Source: Chloroflexota bacterium (GTDB lineage Bacteria; Chloroflexota; Anaerolineae; UBA2200; JACIWT01). From it: a stretch of 64,000 nt of DNA. Below the pieces are notes generated by a model, which saw only the letters and a list, made by a program, of their open reading frames with translations, searched no databases and was not told where the DNA came from. The stretch lies in NCBI GenBank assembly GCA_014360825.1, contig JACIWT010000011.1, positions 1-64,000 on the forward strand, given 5' to 3'. This document shows positions 46,257 through 58,842 of this stretch, in pieces. Position 1 is the stretch's first letter. Every line of letters starts with the position of its first letter. The translations under genes were made by a program, and so were the position numbers.

Positions 46257-48206
46257 TCACGACCTTCGCCAAGCCATTATCGGGAAATACAGCCGGTATG
46301 GTCTACCCCAACGAGCGATCATCCCTGTTGTGATGTCCAAATACTGGCGGGCGTAATTCTCGCTGGGCTCGATGTGGGTGTTGCTCCGGAAATCGTTCCA
46401 CGAGTTGATCACCAGCCAATCTGCTGCGCTGGCAAGCGCTGCCTCGTAGCACAGCGTGTAAGTAGCGCCATTCAGCCGAGGCCGATATTGGCCCGGGTAA
46501 CCAATGCGCCGCTGGTCACTGCCCGGAGACAGGGTCGCCACCCACAGACGTGCAGGCCTCCTCGGCGCCACAGCCGAATTGGCCCGTACTCCCACCATCC
46601 ATCGCTGATTTGCCGACGGCAGCGTATGATAAAGATAGACCGCCTCTTGCATAAGTCCATCGAAGGCAGTCAATATATCTGGGTTGGTGCTATCGGCGAT
46701 ATAGAGTGCTCCGCGGCCTTCGGTCCACAACTGCTCGAAGATATAATCCCATAAGGCAGGCGAGACCTTGTCCGCTGCACTGACCCATACTACCGGTAAC
46801 CCGCCCAGGCGATAATAGGCAGGGTGGCCACCGTAGTTATCGAGTAGATAGCGCAAGTCGCTGGTCACACCAGCAATGTTGACCTGGCCCGAAGCGTTAG
46901 ATTGACCCGCCAGCGATACACTCACGTAGAACCCCTGTCGTTCGGCTTCGGTTAGGAGGAGGGGCAAAACGGAATCGGCTCCATTTCCTGGGGACCAATT
47001 GGCCAACACGAAACCGTCTAGGAACGCCGCTTTGGCCTGAGCCACGTGTCGGGCAATAGCATCAGGGTCGCTGGAGATATAGCGTGACGCGGGGCGATCA
47101 ACGTAGATCTCGCTGTCCCAATCGGCGAGGCGCTGATAATCCGCGTGATAGGTGGCCCAGGTCAGGCGAGGCACATCGCGCCGTGCTTCATCCAGGGATA
47201 CTGGCCCAGAAGCCAATAGCAACTCGCCTGCAACTTCCAGAATTCGTGGAGTGGTATTCGATACCTCTATCTCACCCACGAGGACAGGTTGGTCTCCGTT
47301 GTAGTTGAACACTGCCACGCGGGTGGTTCCGCCGTTACCCTGCTCTATCTGCCACTCCACGGTGCCGGTGATGCTTACATTGCTGAACACGGCATCTACC
47401 ACTGCTGTCTGCTCTGGGTTGGCGGTAGTCCGTGCATTAGGCCCGCTTTGGTAGAGGATATGGCCGGAGGTTGTGGCCCCTGACCCGTTCACAGACACCA
47501 AGTACACCGCCAGGATCTTCGCCCCCTGTACCAGCGTGACTGAGGCCCAGGTGGAGGTGCTGTGTACTTCCACTCGCGTGCGCACCACGCCTTCAGGGAA
47601 CTGCGGCCCGGGGGGAACTGGATCAGCGCGACCCCTTGTGGCGCGAAGGTCGTCCAAATCGGCCTGCACGGGTCCGCCGATCACCAAGTCGGCACTGTTC
47701 ACGGTGAAGGTGGTGCTGGAAGCAGTGTGGATAGTGGCAACACAATTTTCCTGAGGTCCGTTGCCATTGGCGATGCAGGCGGTGACGTCGCCGCCAGACG
47801 ATTGCTCGACGGCGAAGGTAACGGTCGTGCCGGCAAAGGACTGAATGAGCATCAGAGCGCGGACGGAAGCCGTTACCGTTTCCATTGTGCCATTACTGGC
47901 AAGGGCTAAGCCAACGCCACTGCTCTCATCCACGAGCACGTCGGCGTCACCGCTCCAGTTGAGCACAATGACGGCAGCCACCGTTGCGCCGGATTGGAGA
48001 CGAAGCCAAGCAGATGACGTGCCGGTGGCAGTCAGGTCAAGCAAGGAGAAGTAATAGAAATCTGCCTCAGCATGAATAGGCTCTGCACTTGCAACGGTGC
48101 AACGAGTTCCAGCGGGGCTTAGGCAGGGGGCAAACCATAGCAGAGACAGGGCTATGGCCAGGGCGAGCGCGAATTTGAGAGTGCTTAAACGACAGCGTGT
48201 GGACAT
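46257..48206 (-). CDS. Secreted protein with GH99/GH71-like catalytic domain
   Basis: 649 residues with a signal peptide (L-A-L-A-I-A-L-S-L-L-W-F-A). Residues ~45-320 are two beta-rich repeats rich in Ser/Thr/Gly. From ~345 the sequence has a TIM-barrel-like pattern (W-A-T-Y-H-A-D-Y, F-V-L-A-N-W-S, G-G-L-P-V-V-W-V) ending N-S-W-N-D-F-R-S-N-T-H-I-E-P-S, the hallmark of GH99-type endo-mannosidase and WbsX-like domains. It may cut mannose-type polysaccharides. The C-terminus is Y-R-L-Y-F-P-I-M-A-W-R-R-S, a variant of the exported-protein tail motif. Confidence 0.8.
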   Translation of the reverse strand: MSTRCRLSTLKFALALAIALSLLWFAPCLSPAGTRCTVASAEPIHAEADFYYFSLLDLTATGTSSAWLRLQSGATVAAVIVLNWSGDADVLVDESSGVGLALASNGTMETVTASVRALMLIQSFAGTTVTFAVEQSSGGDVTACIANGNGPQENCVATIHTASSTTFTVNSADLVIGGPVQADLDDLRATRGRADPVPPGPQFPEGVVRTRVEVHSTSTWASVTLVQGAKILAVYLVSVNGSGATTSGHILYQSGPNARTTANPEQTAVVDAVFSNVSITGTVEWQIEQGNGGTTRVAVFNYNGDQPVLVGEIEVSNTTPRILEVAGELLLASGPVSLDEARRDVPRLTWATYHADYQRLADWDSEIYVDRPASRYISSDPDAIARHVAQAKAAFLDGFVLANWSPGNGADSVLPLLLTEAERQGFYVSVSLAGQSNASGQVNIAGVTSDLRYLLDNYGGHPAYYRLGGLPVVWVSAADKVSPALWDYIFEQLWTEGRGALYIADSTNPDILTAFDGLMQEAVYLYHTLPSANQRWMVGVRANSAVAPRRPARLWVATLSPGSDQRRIGYPGQYRPRLNGATYTLCYEAALASAADWLVINSWNDFRSNTHIEPSENYARQYLDITTGMIARWGRPYRLYFPIMAWRRS

Positions 48207-52476: not shown

Positions 52477-52998
52477 TTATTTCTTCAAACCCTCCAACAT
52501 CGAGCGGGGCGGGAAAAAGATGGCATCGCGGTCGCAGGTGGCGGCACAAGCGTTGCAACCTACCATGCAGTTGAAGGGTTCGGCGACCACTACCTTATCT
52601 TGGGCTTCGTTCCAAGCATATACGCCGAAGGAACAGAACTTCAGGCATTTGCCACAGCCATCGCACTGCTCTTCATGGATGACGGGATACCAAGGGACTT
52701 GTTCGCGGGGTATGCCGCGCCAAGGTTTGTATTGAGGAGCGGCTCTCTCGCCCTCCCCTTTCCTGCAGAATGCGTTGTACTCCCGTAGCAATGCCTCGGC
52801 GTATTCATTCTCTGCGGCAGCAGGGATGTAGTTGTGCTTTCGAGCCAGGGTAAGCAGTTCGCTTTTGAGATCATCGGTTGGCACACGGCCGGAATCCCGC
52901 AGGCTCTTGAAAATGTCGGTTAGCCCGGTCATTCCGACTACCATGTGGCCAACCCGAATTTGCCGATAATCCGATGAGTTTGTCATCTCCGATTTCAC
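52477..52998 (-). CDS. Two-cluster ferredoxin with helical N-terminal extension
   Basis: 173 residues. C-terminal half carries C-D-G-C-G-K-C-L-K-F-C and C-M-V-G-C-N-A-C-A-A-T-C, two 4Fe-4S sites. Before them is I-P-R-E-Q-V-P-W-Y-P-V-I, a signature shared with the ferredoxins at 57284 and 58097. The N-terminal ~85 residues are helical and unique to this copy. It may start at GTG 52998 or ATG 52986. It closes the redox operon and probably passes electrons among its members. Confidence 0.85.
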   Translation of the reverse strand: MKSEMTNSSDYRQIRVGHMVVGMTGLTDIFKSLRDSGRVPTDDLKSELLTLARKHNYIPAAAENEYAEALLREYNAFCRKGEGERAAPQYKPWRGIPREQVPWYPVIHEEQCDGCGKCLKFCSFGVYAWNEAQDKVVVAEPFNCMVGCNACAATCDRDAIFFPPRSMLEGLKK

Positions 52999-53029: not shown

Positions 53030-53563
53030 TCATGACGATGGCATCTCCCCAAAGAGTTCGGCCAGTTTATGAAGTGATTGGCGATATTTCTCTGTATACA
53101 GCGGTGGGCACTGATTCAGGTGGGCTTGCCCGGCGACCAGTTTCAGAGCAAAGACGAAACAGGTGGGCTGCCCACAGGCCTTGCAATTCTCACCGGGCAG
53201 CAAGCGGTACACATCTAAAGCCTTGGGTGGCTCCCGTCGCTCGTAGCGGGGTTCAATCTCTCCTCGCTTCTCCCAGGTGCGGTTCACCATCTCCACTAAG
53301 CGGTCCACCACGGCTCGGGCCTCTTCGCGGTCCTCCAGATTGCTGACCGCGATCTGACGCGGCCGGATGGAGACTGCGCGTCCGCCCATACGCCAGGTGA
53401 GTATTTGCGCCTTGTGATCGTAGATCGCGCCTTTGAGGGTTGCATTCAAATAGGGCAAGACCTCCGCAATGTCCACAGATAGGTCTGCGAAGGCACTCCA
53501 TCGCTCACTACCCGGATCACAAGGCGGGGACGTGACTGTTAACTCATAGCCTTCGATCAACAT
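53030..53563 (-). CDS. Fe-S protein with corrinoid-iron-sulfur-protein-type cluster motif
   Basis: 177 residues. Near residue 125 the motif N-C-K-A-C-G-Q-P-T-C followed by a Cys 17 positions later (C-x2-C-x4-C-x16-C) is the 4Fe-4S binding pattern of the CFeSP large subunit and related Fes domains. The N-terminal ~110 residues are an alpha/beta domain with no clear family. Cytoplasmic; a likely electron carrier in the operon. Confidence 0.82.
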   Translation of the reverse strand: MLIEGYELTVTSPPCDPGSERWSAFADLSVDIAEVLPYLNATLKGAIYDHKAQILTWRMGGRAVSIRPRQIAVSNLEDREEARAVVDRLVEMVNRTWEKRGEIEPRYERREPPKALDVYRLLPGENCKACGQPTCFVFALKLVAGQAHLNQCPPLYTEKYRQSLHKLAELFGEMPSS

Positions 53564-53631: not shown

Positions 53632-54441
53632 TCATCTGGATTTCCGGGAACGCCACAGAACGATCATCAGCAAGACCACGATACTCAGCCCGAGAGGCAA
53701 AAAGAACCCTTCTGCCAAGGTTGCCGTTTGCCCGATTGTCTCGGTCGGCGCGTGTGAAGGCCCTGGTATTGGGGTGGATGTAAATTCTGCCGTAGGAGGT
53801 GCAGTTTTGGTCTGAGTAGGCATTGCTGTTATCACGCCCAGGCTCGGTATCCTGGTTGGCACACTCGTAACCGACATTGTAACCGTGGGAGTAATAGTAG
53901 GCGTTTTGGTAGGTGCTGTCGTGGCGGTAGCAGTAGCGGTGTTGGTAGCCGTTACAGTCCAGGTTTCCGGTGGCGTCATCGTCGTCGTGCTCGACGGTGC
54001 CTTCGCCGGCGGCAACTTGGTAGCCGTGGGATGCACCGATGTTCTCGTTGGCGACACCGTCTTGGTAGGCGAAGGGACATCGGTCGGCGGTGCTTGGGTG
54101 GCCGTAGGAAGAGCCAGCGATGGCGTAGGCGATGCTGCCGTGGTGGGCGAGAGCGTTTCCGTCGGTGGCACCTCGGTAGCAGTGGGAGAGGCAGGTGGTT
54201 CCGTTGGCGAGACTAACAGTGTGGGCGAAGGAATCTCGGTGGCTGTTGGCTCGGGTGTGGCAGTCGGCGCGCACGGCGTCGGGATAGCAGTCGGTCACTG
54301 TCCCGGTGGTTGTGCTCTCGTCCCCACGGTTCCACCACAATATAGCCCCATTGCACATACTGCCAAGGCTAGGACGCGACATATTTCCAAAACCCCCTTC
54401 CGAGGGGTCATTCGCTGCCGTTTTCCGAGTTCCGCTGTCAT
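53632..54441 (-). CDS. Exported Thr/Pro-stalk protein with C-terminal membrane anchor, interrupted by an in-frame TGA
   Basis: 270 codons from ATG 54441 (TAGGAA upstream). Codons 1-48 give a signal-type hydrophobic segment (V-L-A-L-A-V-C-A-M-G-L-Y-C-G-G). Codon 49 is TGA (54295-54297). The same frame then continues as P-T-A-I-P-T-P and ~170 residues of Thr/Pro/Ser stalk, ending F-F-L-P-L-G-L-S-I-V-V-L-L-M-I-V-L-W-R-S-R-K-S-R, a membrane anchor. No good start lies just after the TGA. It could be a nonsense mutation, readthrough, or recoding; the gene directly upstream has an in-frame TGA too. Confidence 0.7.
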
Positions 54442-54451
54442 AGCGCGATTC

Positions 54452-55261
54452 CTACGAGGCGCTGCCCTTCATCACAACCGGCAGACAAACCACGAAGCGA
54501 GGTGGCGCTTCAAACGCCATCGTTGCCTGATAGACTTCCTTCTGTGCTCCCACAGGATCTTGTACGAAGGCGATAGCCTCGACCAAACTACGATCCTCGG
54601 CGGATACTGGTTCTGACAAAGCCGAGTACGTGTTGCGCAGTCCCGGCACTAGACTACCGGCAGGAAGGGGGCCAATGACCTGTAGGGCGTAGAAGGGGGT
54701 CATAGCCACCTTGCGCTGCGTATATATGGCGAAGAAAACCTGGGCATTTTCGATCGTGGAGGAACACGTAGGTGTAATGATCACAGAAAGGGCCAACTGG
54801 TTGCCTTCCCAGGTCCGTGTAGCAGCTATATCCATAGGGCTGGGCCTGCTGAGTTCGGCTTCTATCAGCGGGCGATAGGCCGCGTAATAGTCAGGCTGGT
54901 AACCCGTGATGTGACCAGAAAATCCATCCACCATCACGTTAGGCCAGTCAAATGATCCAGCATAGTAGGCCAATCGTGACTGCCCCAACTGGTAATTGAA
55001 AGCCAGATCATACTCCAAGATCAACAATTGTTGGCGCGAATATTCCGCTCCCAGACGTTCCACCGCCCGACCCGCGGACGGACTCGGACAGGGCCCTCAA
55101 GTAGTGTACCAACAGAAGTGCTCGAACAGCACAGCGCGTGGGCTGTCGGCTTTCACTTCAGAAGCCAAGGCAAACAGAGCCACAAGGATGAGCACTGATA
55201 TCCAAAACACGACTTGCTTGGGTCTATGTATTTCTATTTCACGCTCGTATTCGTGACTCAC
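54452..55261 (-). CDS. Secreted thioredoxin-fold protein, candidate selenoprotein (U-G-P-C)
   Basis: 270 codons from GTG 55261 to TAG 54452, with one in-frame TGA as codon 55 (55097-55099). Read through, the protein has a membrane/signal segment (residues 17-34), then A-V-L-F-E-H-F-C-W-Y-T-T-U-G-P-C-P, the normal start of an Omp28/thioredoxin-like domain, with TGA exactly where the first Cys of C-G-P-C belongs. Frame, spacing and composition continue unbroken for 215 residues (L-A-Y-Y-A-G-S-F-D-W-P, V-D-G). A 7-bp hairpin follows the TGA. It ends R-F-V-V-C-L-P-V-V-M-K-G-S-A-S, the exported-protein tail. It sits 15 nt after the CcdA/thioredoxin gene, its likely reductant. The alternative is a recent nonsense mutation, with translation restarting at GTG 55063. 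Confidence 0.72.
55063..55081 (-). promoter_or_regulatory. Candidate bacterial SECIS hairpin
   Basis: CCGTCCG, loop CGGGT, CGGGCGG: a continuous 7-bp stem (one G-U) whose G-rich five-base loop begins 23 nt after the TGA. Bacterial SECIS elements sit within the coding region just after UGA with a G (and often GGU) in the apical loop, which this fits. Confidence 0.55.
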
Positions 55262-55276
55262 GTCACACTCTTTTAC

Positions 55277-57193
55277 TTAAAGCAGACTACTGAAAAGCCA
55301 AACGGCCAGTGCAGCAAAGAGGATGGCGGTGAGCAATTTGACGGGGGCCACGTGCTGCTCCAGGAAAGATCCCAATTGCCGCGACGTAGTGCCGTAAAAG
55401 GCGAGCAAGAAAACTATCACCAATGGCGCAATAAACATTAAATTATACAGCACCAAGTACAAGACTCCGTAAGCACGTAACTCCGCCACGCCAGCCACAA
55501 AGATGATAGTGGGCAAATACACCTGGCCAGTGCAGGCCAACTCCAATAACGAGACGACGACACCCGTTCCCAATGCTCCCCACACAAAACCGCTCAATCG
55601 CGATTGGGTGCGGATGGTATGGTGTATCTGCTGGTGAACGCGTTTGGGCAGCCGCAGACGCATTTCTTCCGGGCGGCCGCGCCGAGCCTGGATGAAATCA
55701 TAGGCGCTGAGTATAGCGAAAGCAGCACATAAGAGTGCCGTCGCCAAGTAGACCAGGCGGGACAGAATGCTCAAGAAGGCCAGCGAGGTGATGAATTTCA
55801 ATGCTCCCAGACCGACTAGTAGGTAGGTGAGGAACACGCCCAGGGTGAAAGCCGCACCCACCAGTATGATATCGCGCCCTTTGCGTCCGATAAAAGCCAG
55901 GTAGGAGATGAAGAAGACGATGGTTGTGAAAGCGCAGGGGTTCACACCGTCCAGCAACCCTGCCCCAATGACGGTGAGCACCCCCAACGATCGGAAGCGC
56001 CGGATAATGCTCTCGGTGGAGGCGTTGGGATCGAAATCGCGCCAGATCGGGTCCGCACCTGTGGCCACATAACGTGCCAACAGCGATTCTATCTCTCGAG
56101 CATTTACGTCTTGGCCAACTAAGGCATCCTTCCCCACGAAAACAGCCGGCGCAGTCAGCCGCTTCTCTTCGGGAACGGCAGTGGCTTCGCCGAGCCATTC
56201 GAGCAGCGCAGCCTCAGCCCGGGCATCGAAGGACACTACCACCAGTTGGGGATATCGAGTTTTCAGAAATCTTAGATCTAGTTCTGCCCGGTCACATTCC
56301 TGACAACCCGGCTGGTAGAAATAGGCGAGGTAGATAAGAGGCAACCCTGCGCTTTCGCTGGAACCGCACCACCGACACCCCTCTTCGGGCAGCCGTTCGA
56401 AACGCTCCTCGACTCGCGACGGGGTCTCAGTAACCGTCTCTATTTCATCTGGAGTCGGCAATGGGGCACCCCCGGACTCAAGATACTGCGACACCAGGAA
56501 AGGCAGCCTCTCTCTGATCTCTGCTTCCCCGATCAGCGCGTGTTTGCCGATGAAAACTTCCGGCATAGAGGGCTTTTTGACGCCGTATGCTTCCTCCAAT
56601 GCGCGGATCAAGCGGTAGTTCTCCACCGATGTCTCGACATCGTGCTCCATCACTGCCAATCGCGCGCCGTACTGGCTTTGGAGGACGCCGATCACCTCCT
56701 CGCGGATAACCGCACACTCCGGACACTTCCTGCTGTAAAAGAAGCGCAGGTGCACAATGGATTCAGGCTGGGCAGTCGGAGTGGCAACTGGGGACGCGGT
56801 AGGGTCGGGGAAATCCGTGCCCCCTGCTTCGAAATAGGCAGCGATCACCTGGCCGGCCCGGGCGCGAATATCCTCTTCGCCAAGCAGAACCGTATCGCCC
56901 ACGAACATCTCAGGGATCGTGGCTATATCCGGGGTCACACCGTAGATGGCTTCCAGCGCCAGCAGTTGCGAATAGACTTCAGGGTCGGAAATCTCCAACA
57001 GTTTGATTGCAAGCCGGTCTCCATACTCCATTTGAAGTTGCGGCACAATCTCTTGCAAGACGCGTTGGCAGTGAGGACAGTCTTCAGCGTAGAAAAGAAG
57101 CGCCCGCACAACCGGCTCGTCAGCCAATACAGAGTTGCAGAAAACAAGCCCCGCTATCGCGAGAACGATCACACCAGTTGCCACACGATTCAT
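55277..57193 (-). CDS. Three thioredoxin-like domains fused to a CcdA/DsbD-type transmembrane electron carrier
   Basis: 638 residues. Signal segment, then three small thioredoxin-like domains with active-site pairs C39-P-H-C42, C-P-E-C (~167) and C-Q-E-C (~300), each followed by the P-E-M/V-F-V/I-G-x-x-x-L-G/I pattern. The first two domains are linked by short Thr/Pro stretches. From ~410 a CcdA domain of six helices carries G-V-N-P-C-A-F-T-T and the second conserved Cys in L-A-C-T-G-Q-V-Y-L-P. It should move electrons from a cytoplasmic dithiol across the membrane to the outer thioredoxin domains and on to the U-G-P-C protein encoded next. Confidence 0.92.
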   Translation of the reverse strand: MNRVATGVIVLAIAGLVFCNSVLADEPVVRALLFYAEDCPHCQRVLQEIVPQLQMEYGDRLAIKLLEISDPEVYSQLLALEAIYGVTPDIATIPEMFVGDTVLLGEEDIRARAGQVIAAYFEAGGTDFPDPTASPVATPTAQPESIVHLRFFYSRKCPECAVIREEVIGVLQSQYGARLAVMEHDVETSVENYRLIRALEEAYGVKKPSMPEVFIGKHALIGEAEIRERLPFLVSQYLESGGAPLPTPDEIETVTETPSRVEERFERLPEEGCRWCGSSESAGLPLIYLAYFYQPGCQECDRAELDLRFLKTRYPQLVVVSFDARAEAALLEWLGEATAVPEEKRLTAPAVFVGKDALVGQDVNAREIESLLARYVATGADPIWRDFDPNASTESIIRRFRSLGVLTVIGAGLLDGVNPCAFTTIVFFISYLAFIGRKGRDIILVGAAFTLGVFLTYLLVGLGALKFITSLAFLSILSRLVYLATALLCAAFAILSAYDFIQARRGRPEEMRLRLPKRVHQQIHHTIRTQSRLSGFVWGALGTGVVVSLLELACTGQVYLPTIIFVAGVAELRAYGVLYLVLYNLMFIAPLVIVFLLAFYGTTSRQLGSFLEQHVAPVKLLTAILFAALAVWLFSSLL

Positions 57194-57283: not shown

Positions 57284-57571
57284 TTACGCACCAGAATGAT
57301 CAGCCGAGACCTCCTGCGCTGCTGCGCGCATGGCGGCCACCAATTCCTCTTTGGTCGGGAAGTGGATGGCACCAGCCTCGCACAGGTTGGCGCAGGCGCT
57401 ACATCCCACTACACAGTTGTACGGGTTGGTAACAAGGGGATGACTTTCATCATCATCCCATTCGAAGACGCCATTTCCGCAGAAGTTAAAGCATTCTTGG
57501 CACCCGACACATACTTCGTAGTCAATGGTCGGATACCAAGGGATTTTCTCTCTCGGGATTCTCGAACTCAT
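57284..57571 (-). CDS. Small two-cluster ferredoxin
   Basis: 95 residues. I-P-R-E-K-I-P-W-Y-P-T-I then C-V-G-C-Q-E-C-F-N-F-C and C-V-V-G-C-S-A-C-A-N-L-C, two 4Fe-4S clusters. Shares the I-P-R-x3-P-W-Y-P-x-I start with the ferredoxins at 52477 and 58097. GGAGG upstream. Cytoplasmic electron carrier of the operon. Confidence 0.9.
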   Translation of the reverse strand: MSSRIPREKIPWYPTIDYEVCVGCQECFNFCGNGVFEWDDDESHPLVTNPYNCVVGCSACANLCEAGAIHFPTKEELVAAMRAAAQEVSADHSGA

Positions 57572-57670: not shown

Positions 57671-58036
57671 CTATTTCTCGGTCAGTTTCTCAATAGTCTC
57701 CGCCACTTTTTTCATTGCATCCTCAGTGGACATATTGCGGAGATCGAGGGAGACTACCTGTTTGTCGAAGTCACCACCCATTTCTGCGAAGACGTCTTTG
57801 AACATCTTACGCTGCATCTTGGGGTCGCAGGCTCCGACAACATAGGTTATCCCCGGCTTAGCGTAATCGCGCCAGAACCGGTCGCCATCATCCACGCAGA
57901 GTTGTGGGTGAACGATGGCATACTCCACACCCAACTCTGTACGCACGTAGTTGATCAGCCTCCAGAGATCCAGTTTGGAGAACCCAGGGCACTCTCCCGT
58001 GCAAATGCACATTACGAATCTCGGTTTCTCGCTCAT
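57671..58036 (-). CDS. HdrA N-terminal-domain-like protein
   Basis: 121 residues, GGAGGAAAAA upstream. Resembles the N-terminal domain of heterodisulfide reductase subunit A: V-M-C-I-C-T-G-E-C-P-G at the start, H-P-Q-L-C-V-D-D in the middle and Y-V-V-G-A-C-D-P-K-M-Q-R-K-M-F at ~85. Four to five cysteines could hold a cluster. The flavin domain of full HdrA is absent, so it is probably a small Fe-S or thiol partner acting with the flanking ferredoxins. Confidence 0.78.
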   Translation of the reverse strand: MSEKPRFVMCICTGECPGFSKLDLWRLINYVRTELGVEYAIVHPQLCVDDGDRFWRDYAKPGITYVVGACDPKMQRKMFKDVFAEMGGDFDKQVVSLDLRNMSTEDAMKKVAETIEKLTEK

Positions 58037-58096: not shown

Positions 58097-58390
58097 CTAC
58101 TGAGGAGGATATTCTCCCCGCAGTTCTTTGATGACTGCTTTGACCGATGCTTTGTCTGGGAATGAGATAGCATTGGCATCGCACACGAATTGGCAGCTCT
58201 GGCAGTATACCTCGCAGTTGTACGGGTTGGCTACCGATACACTCGGTGAACCCCCATCCAACACGTACACATCGTGTTTGCAGTGCATCACACAAGCGCT
58301 GCACCCTTTCACGCAAGCGTCTGGATCTATGCGCGGATACCAGGGAATCAGTGCTCGTGGTATACCCAGGTAGCGTTTGTCTTGCTGCAT
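58097..58390 (-). CDS. Small ferredoxin, third paralogue
   Basis: 97 residues: I-P-R-A-L-I-P-W-Y-P-R-I, then C-V-K-G-C-S-A-C-V-M-H-C (first site with an extra residue) and C-E-V-Y-C-Q-S-C-Q-F-V-C. First structural gene after the regulator. Two 4Fe-4S clusters are likely, the first with altered spacing. Confidence 0.88.
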   Translation of the reverse strand: MQQDKRYLGIPRALIPWYPRIDPDACVKGCSACVMHCKHDVYVLDGGSPSVSVANPYNCEVYCQSCQFVCDANAISFPDKASVKAVIKELRGEYPPQ

Positions 58391-58430: not shown

Positions 58431-58808
58431 CTACAGATGAGACCGTTCCGCCCGGCACTCAGGACAGGAGCAATTCAGCTCTGCACGCGCGGGTAGTCTG
58501 ATTTGCAGTAGAGACTCCTCACCGGACGCGGTAGCCAGGCGAAGGCGAACCTCGCGCAATACCCGCACAATGTCCGTGTCCGCCAGATGGTAGTAGACGT
58601 AGAGGCCCACCTTCCTATCGGCGACCAGTCCTGCCTCTTTTAGGATAGCCAGTTGCTGTGAGACATAGGCCTGGCGCTGTTGCAGAACAGCCACAAGATG
58701 GCAGACGCAAGCCTCGCCTTGGGTCAGTATGTCTAGGATCTGCAGACGCACTGGATGCGCCAGAGCGCTGTAGAATCGCGCCTCTCGGTCAAACACCTCT
58801 TGTGTCAT
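58431..58808 (-). CDS. ArsR-family transcriptional repressor
   Basis: 125 residues from ATG 58808; a TTG eight codons upstream overlaps the operator. Winged helix with A-L-A-H-P-V-R-L-Q-I-L-D-I-L, C-V-C-H-L-V, Q-A-Y-V-S-Q-Q-L-A-I-L-K-E-A-G-L-V and Y-H-L-A-D. Cys pair C-V-C in the helix before the recognition helix is the arsenic/metal type position, and extra Cys lie in N-C-S-C-P-E-C at the tail. It probably senses a thiophilic metal(loid) or a redox signal and represses this operon. Confidence 0.9.
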   Translation of the reverse strand: MTQEVFDREARFYSALAHPVRLQILDILTQGEACVCHLVAVLQQRQAYVSQQLAILKEAGLVADRKVGLYVYYHLADTDIVRVLREVRLRLATASGEESLLQIRLPARAELNCSCPECRAERSHL

Positions 58809-58824
58809 ATTCTGCCCCAGACTG

Positions 58825-58842
58825 TATTCCAAATATGGAATA
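58825..58842. promoter_or_regulatory. Putative ArsR operator
   Basis: TATTCCA-AATA-TGGAATA, perfect 7-nt arms, placed directly after the -10 element, where binding would block transcription. Confidence 0.7.

Follow-up and report, generated by a model that had tools for sequence, protein, structure and literature searches.

A probable exported selenoprotein with a thioredoxin fold and a U-G-P-C active site in a Chloroflexota bacterium

The 64,000-nt stretch of DNA analyzed here (the window), from an uncultured Chloroflexota bacterium of the Anaerolineae type, very probably carries a genuine selenoprotein gene, to which we assign a probability of roughly 0.93. The UGA at 55099-55097 would be read as selenocysteine (Sec) by means of SelB, tRNA-Sec and a hairpin, and the product would be an exported, membrane-anchored protein resembling HBP35 and Omp28. 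The first-pass annotation had proposed a candidate selenoprotein with TGA at the position of the nucleophile, and this was supported by the Sec genes of the genome, the conserved hairpin, and the TGA or Cys in the same column of the relatives. The features are collected in Table 1.

Table 1. Positions of the selenoprotein gene, its parts and the surrounding genes in the window
Feature	Position	Strand	Remarks
ArsR/SmtB-type regulator	58431..58832	-	Head of the gene run
Ferredoxin-like protein	58097..58390	-	
121-aa Cys-containing protein	57671..58036	-	Between ferredoxin genes; without family
Two-cluster ferredoxin	57284..57571	-	
Upstream neighbor	55277..57193	-	Three thioredoxin/glutaredoxin-like domains (CPHC, CPEC, CQEC) and a multi-helix membrane domain
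Selenoprotein CDS	54452..55261	-	269 aa; UGA as Sec55; open frame
N-terminal hydrophobic helix	55163..55222	-	Residues 14-33; signal or membrane anchor; from model and sequence
Thioredoxin-fold domain	54851..55132	-	Residues 44-137; Sec55 at start of helix 1; conserved Pro107
In-frame TGA (Sec55)	55097..55099	-	Attacking position of the U-G-P-C motif
TGT (Cys58)	55088..55090	-	Resolving Cys of U-G-P-C; from sequence
SECIS-like hairpin	55063..55081	-	CCGTCCG-CGGGT-CGGGCGG; 7 bp, 5-nt loop (CGGGU); starts 15-16 nt past UGA
C-terminal beta-sandwich (Ig-like)	54560..54835	-	Residues 143-234; from model
Thr/Pro-rich protein	53632-54171	-	Directly past the selenoprotein gene; C-terminal hydrophobic segment; without family
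Fe-S (PF04060) protein	53030..53563	-	Downstream
Ferredoxin-domain protein	52477..52998	-	Downstream

The frame extends exactly from GTG 55261, which sits 15-16 nt past the stop of the upstream gene, to TAG 54454-54452. As the earlier reading held, the TGA was its sole internal stop. The context of this codon on the minus strand is FEHFCWYTT-(TGA)-GPCPSPSAGRAVERL. As in other bacterial selenoproteins, the UGA falls at a redox site at which homologs have Cys. In the relatives, the protein is conserved as one unit on either side of the UGA, and the position of Cys58 is taken by Ser in some of them (UGIS, UDNS).

In this G+C-rich window, frames interrupted in this way are not rare in themselves: 24 stops, 10 of them TGA, divide open frames of at least 55 and at least 200 codons. 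The case for a selenoprotein therefore rests on conservation and machinery. It stands above chance because the TGA and the hairpin are conserved in relatives and the Sec machinery is present in the genome.

The source genome is a 2.9-Mb draft of 64 contigs, 98% complete with 1.6% contamination. A search for Sec genes located all four components in it. SelB scored above the family cut-off, SelA and SelD matched at 585 and 375 bits, respectively, and ARAGORN found a tRNA-Sec with the anticodon TCA (UCA) about 5 kb from selB. The SelD gene contains an in-frame TGA of its own (...AGUAAKRGP...), which points independently to Sec as the reading of UGA in this genome.

These results bear on the idea that a suppressor reads the TGA, or that the whole genome uses TGA for Trp or some other residue; nothing was found in favor of it. 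TGA terminates 22 of the 43 open frames of at least 250 codons in the window, in agreement with the earlier remark that it is an ordinary stop elsewhere. Together with SelB, the tRNA-Sec with its UCA anticodon, and the use of Cys rather than Trp as the substitute in relatives, this makes such recoding the least probable of the alternatives.

Relatives were collected from 396 genomes of the class by protein search, from 400 genomes of the phylum by profile search, and from named genome contigs by a scan. TGA was found in the Sec55 column of 20 genes from 17 genomes of Chloroflexota and Acidobacteria, the window gene included, and it was the only stop common to the relatives. The active-site motifs of these genes were UGPC, UGIS, UGMC, UDNS, UGIC, UWHC, UGYC, UGVC, UTIC, USGC, USYC and UPIC. 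Named carriers include the Anaerolineae MAGs S016_13 and CSSed162cmA_203, and the Acidobacteria type is represented by two MAGs (L087, and L093 of the Thermoanaerobaculaceae). Three genomes (G319, G037 and G405) have tandem pairs of TGA genes, side by side.

The remaining four relatives have Cys in this column: G218 (CGFS), G330 (CGFC), G684 (CGNS) and L094 (CGHC). Sec thus occupies 20 of the 24 rows, a proportion that is no census, since the sampling began from a Sec query. One hit, L028, was discarded as a false match in which the active-site region is absent. No relative was found in the plasmid and phage collections.

The distribution of the machinery was also compared. Of the 17 TGA genomes, 15 had a SelA that scored above the cut-off. 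The other two were G224 (82% complete; SelB, tRNA-Sec and SelD present) and the genome of L095 (2.0-Mb draft), and G096 (81% complete) missed only a tRNA-Sec over the cut-off; all three are incomplete drafts. Two of the Cys forms come from genomes of one family that group on the tree, G218 and G330, and in these none of SelA, SelB, tRNA-Sec and SelD was found over the cut-off. SelA is present in the other two Cys-form genomes, G684 and that of L094. The closest relatives by sequence score, in G060 and G139, have Cys and Ser, respectively, at the site, and both genomes have Sec genes. Therefore, the presence of the machinery does not force the use of Sec. The Ser-bearing remote relative in G139 is fused to an apparent ABC-transporter permease.

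Maximum-likelihood trees separated an Anaerolineae/Acidobacteria branch from a branch of the window protein and Omp28-like forms (support 100/98-99). Sec occurred in both branches, with Cys nested in places. The Cys gene of G684 (L056/L086) has a TGC codon and has retained a SECIS-like hairpin (p = 0.007) in a genome with SelA. It looks like a recent Sec-to-Cys change.

The recurrence of the TGA speaks against two further explanations. A mistake in sequencing or assembly that put TGA in place of TGC, TGT or TGG would fit with the draft state of the source genome and its 64 contigs. However, 19 further genes have TGA at this codon, and they come from 16 genomes that were assembled independently, several of them closed in one contig; we regard an error as very improbable. 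A pseudogene with a recent nonsense mutation would be in line with the Cys at the site in some relatives. On the other hand, the 269 codons contain no second stop, the one TGA coincides with the catalytic residue, the genome has the Sec machinery, and deep relatives have TGA in the same column. This leaves a pseudogene very improbable as well.

The first-pass annotation had also described a 7-bp hairpin 3' of the TGA. The hairpin was present, and a bSECIS-like hairpin was conserved in the relatives. In ten indel-free relatives, nucleotides 13-19 after the TGA pair with nucleotides 23-29 around a GUC-type loop. Synonymous recodings that kept the protein and the codon usage served as shuffled controls. 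In the ten relatives, 61 of the 70 pairs were formed, compared with 47.5 (sd 2.35) in the shuffles, of which 0 in 2000 reached 61, and the covariation was 0.330, compared with 0.192 in the shuffles and at most 0.181 when the register was slid; kinship of the sequences (e.g., G391 and G319) inflates these pairing and covariation figures somewhat. Four pairs had changes on both sides, a number equaled in 0-2 of 500 shuffles.

In the Omp28-like branch (G405, G430, G559, G614 and G626), a stem of 6-7 bp lay 2 nt nearer to the TGA (p = 0.002-0.033 each). In the Cys genomes without the machinery, G218 and G330, the hairpin was not above chance (p = 0.17-0.59).

For the window gene alone, the folding energy was not significant against synonymous shuffles (p = 0.43), and fixed-register pairing was adopted as the test in its place. 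The result was modest, with p = 0.005 for the named register and p = 0.029 for the best of all allowed bSECIS-like hairpins. A 6-nt insertion (two extra codons) shifts the hairpin in this gene and leaves only four pairs in the homologous register; the SECIS evidence is for this reason weaker here than in the relatives. A SECIS hairpin immediately downstream of the UGA is thus strongly supported for the family and modestly for the window gene by itself.

The fold was examined with an AlphaFold2 model built on an alignment of ten relatives (pLDDT 73.8, pTM 0.69); single-sequence prediction gave a pLDDT of 36. In the model, the elements follow the thioredoxin order: beta 44-50, helix 61-73, beta 79-85, helix 90-98, betas 108-119 and helix 125-137. 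Sec55 precedes the first helix of this domain, and Pro107 precedes strand 108-111. The beta-alpha-beta order, the active site ahead of helix 1 and the conserved Pro are those of a thioredoxin fold. Sequence profiles gave thioredoxin matches around the active site (best E = 6.6e-6), and the C-terminal domain of the relatives matched DUF11, DUF7507 and CARDB weakly. The best Foldseek match in the PDB was HBP35 of P. gingivalis (5y1a; E = 2.7e-8, TMq 0.58), and the Omp28 domain (2r2c) was also matched (E = 2.2e-4).

The model is also relevant to the possibility that the TGA is a true stop separating two proteins, the second starting from GTG 55063. A 203-aa ORF from this GTG does exist. Nevertheless, the Cys relatives are one continuous protein, and the strand encoded before the TGA is needed for the thioredoxin fold, so that two separate products seem most improbable. 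The 203-aa C-terminal part, used as a query of the genome collection, found no relative.

Similar tails are found in several secreted proteins, at 54455-54490 and 46257-46290 on the minus strand and in the homologs L029, L056 and L067 (VCLPVVMKGSAS, YFPIMAWRRS, IYLPVVGRK and VYLPLLNRS). These common tails may serve as a C-terminal signal for sorting or anchoring.

The selenoprotein gene lies in a same-strand run with the features of a redox operon, with the ArsR-type regulator first and several ferredoxins included. The membrane domain of the upstream neighbor has conserved Cys in NPC and ELACTGQ, and this protein is a candidate electron conduit, with a putative role as electron donor. Assignment of its membrane domain to CcdA/DsbD was not confirmed: PF02683 and PF13386 were not matched, and Pfam and hhalign gave no support. 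A weak ArsG-type match (E = 0.013) was seen. A second copy of this protein is encoded in the same genome (G000:C16:27750-29378; 66% identity over the last 396 residues).

A tight partnership between this neighbor and the selenoprotein was also rejected, since the neighbor is common without the selenoprotein; its homologs occurred in 188 of the 396 genomes of the class, compared with about 12 for the selenoprotein. In G614, which holds a distant relative, the gene immediately downstream of the selenoprotein gene encodes a true CcdA (PF02683, 1e-21), and G626 has this pair as well. The gene context, including these CcdA genes, suggests that electrons may be delivered across the membrane.

With the adjacent hairpin as the signal, SelB and tRNA-Sec would decode the UGA as Sec and yield an exported, membrane-anchored protein whose thioredoxin fold, with its U-G-P-C active site, precedes an Ig-like domain. 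Outside the membrane, the Sec selenolate may attack disulfides or another oxidized substrate, and Cys58 would resolve the mixed selenylsulfide. Cytosolic electrons could reach the Sec protein through the three-thioredoxin membrane neighbor, which the ferredoxins of the gene run perhaps feed. The most likely function is that of an extracytoplasmic Sec thiol-disulfide oxidoreductase. A broader proposal, which we consider doubtful as a whole, is that a family without an entry in Pfam, NCBIfam or the 2026 catalog, with Sec prevailing across two phyla, here forms the outer end of a path from ferredoxin to the exterior via the three-thioredoxin membrane protein, as a selenium-dependent extracytoplasmic reductase system.

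Because standard annotation ends the gene at the UGA, each genome that carries it has the protein either missing or given a wrong start. Chloroflexota and Acidobacteria, about whose thiol chemistry outside the cell little is known, would gain an exported Sec enzyme. The Sec-dominant set, in which Cys has replaced Sec at a few places in the tree, also offers a dated series for Sec-to-Cys exchange, of which G684 is an example.

Selenoproteins that combine UxxC with a thioredoxin fold form a large and established group (PMC13188914). The window protein resembles SaoT and the other thioredoxin-like bacterial selenoproteins tabulated there in its UxxC, its fold and its Sec from UGA, but none of their NCBIfam models matches it. 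Of the catalogued selenoprotein families, the nearest is NF045500 (hypothetical protein GOS_C, Omp28-related), which was first reported from ocean metagenomes without function (PMC2398784) and is listed among many UxxC selenoproteins in a 2026 review (PMC13188914). The window protein shares UxxC in a thioredoxin fold with it, and the distant members L060, L061 and L067 match the model, although at no more than 39.6 bits against a cut-off of 200. The window protein itself gave no match to NF045500 at E <= 0.1, far from the 200 bits of membership.

The relation to Omp28 (PF11551/NF033782; PDB 2r2c) proposed earlier held only as a distant one. One domain matches structurally, distant relatives match the models below cut-off (L061 at 24 bits to PF11551, for which the gathering score is 34.9), and both these relatives and the modeled fold point toward Omp28/HBP35. 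On the other hand, the window protein matched no Pfam or NCBIfam model, PF11551 at its gathering score and NF033782 included. A literature search for Omp28 selenoproteins found no paper. HBP35 (5y1a) is alike in its overall predicted fold, with a thioredoxin domain and a C-terminal domain, and differs in having Cys in place of Sec and in its 14% identity; Por-system sorting and hemin binding are features of its own. The thioredoxin activity of HBP35 requires both active-site Cys (PMC2907840), and the window protein probably works like thioredoxin and HBP35. The selenoprotein family is very probably real and previously uncatalogued, and is a new family-level member of the UxxC thioredoxin-fold selenoproteins.
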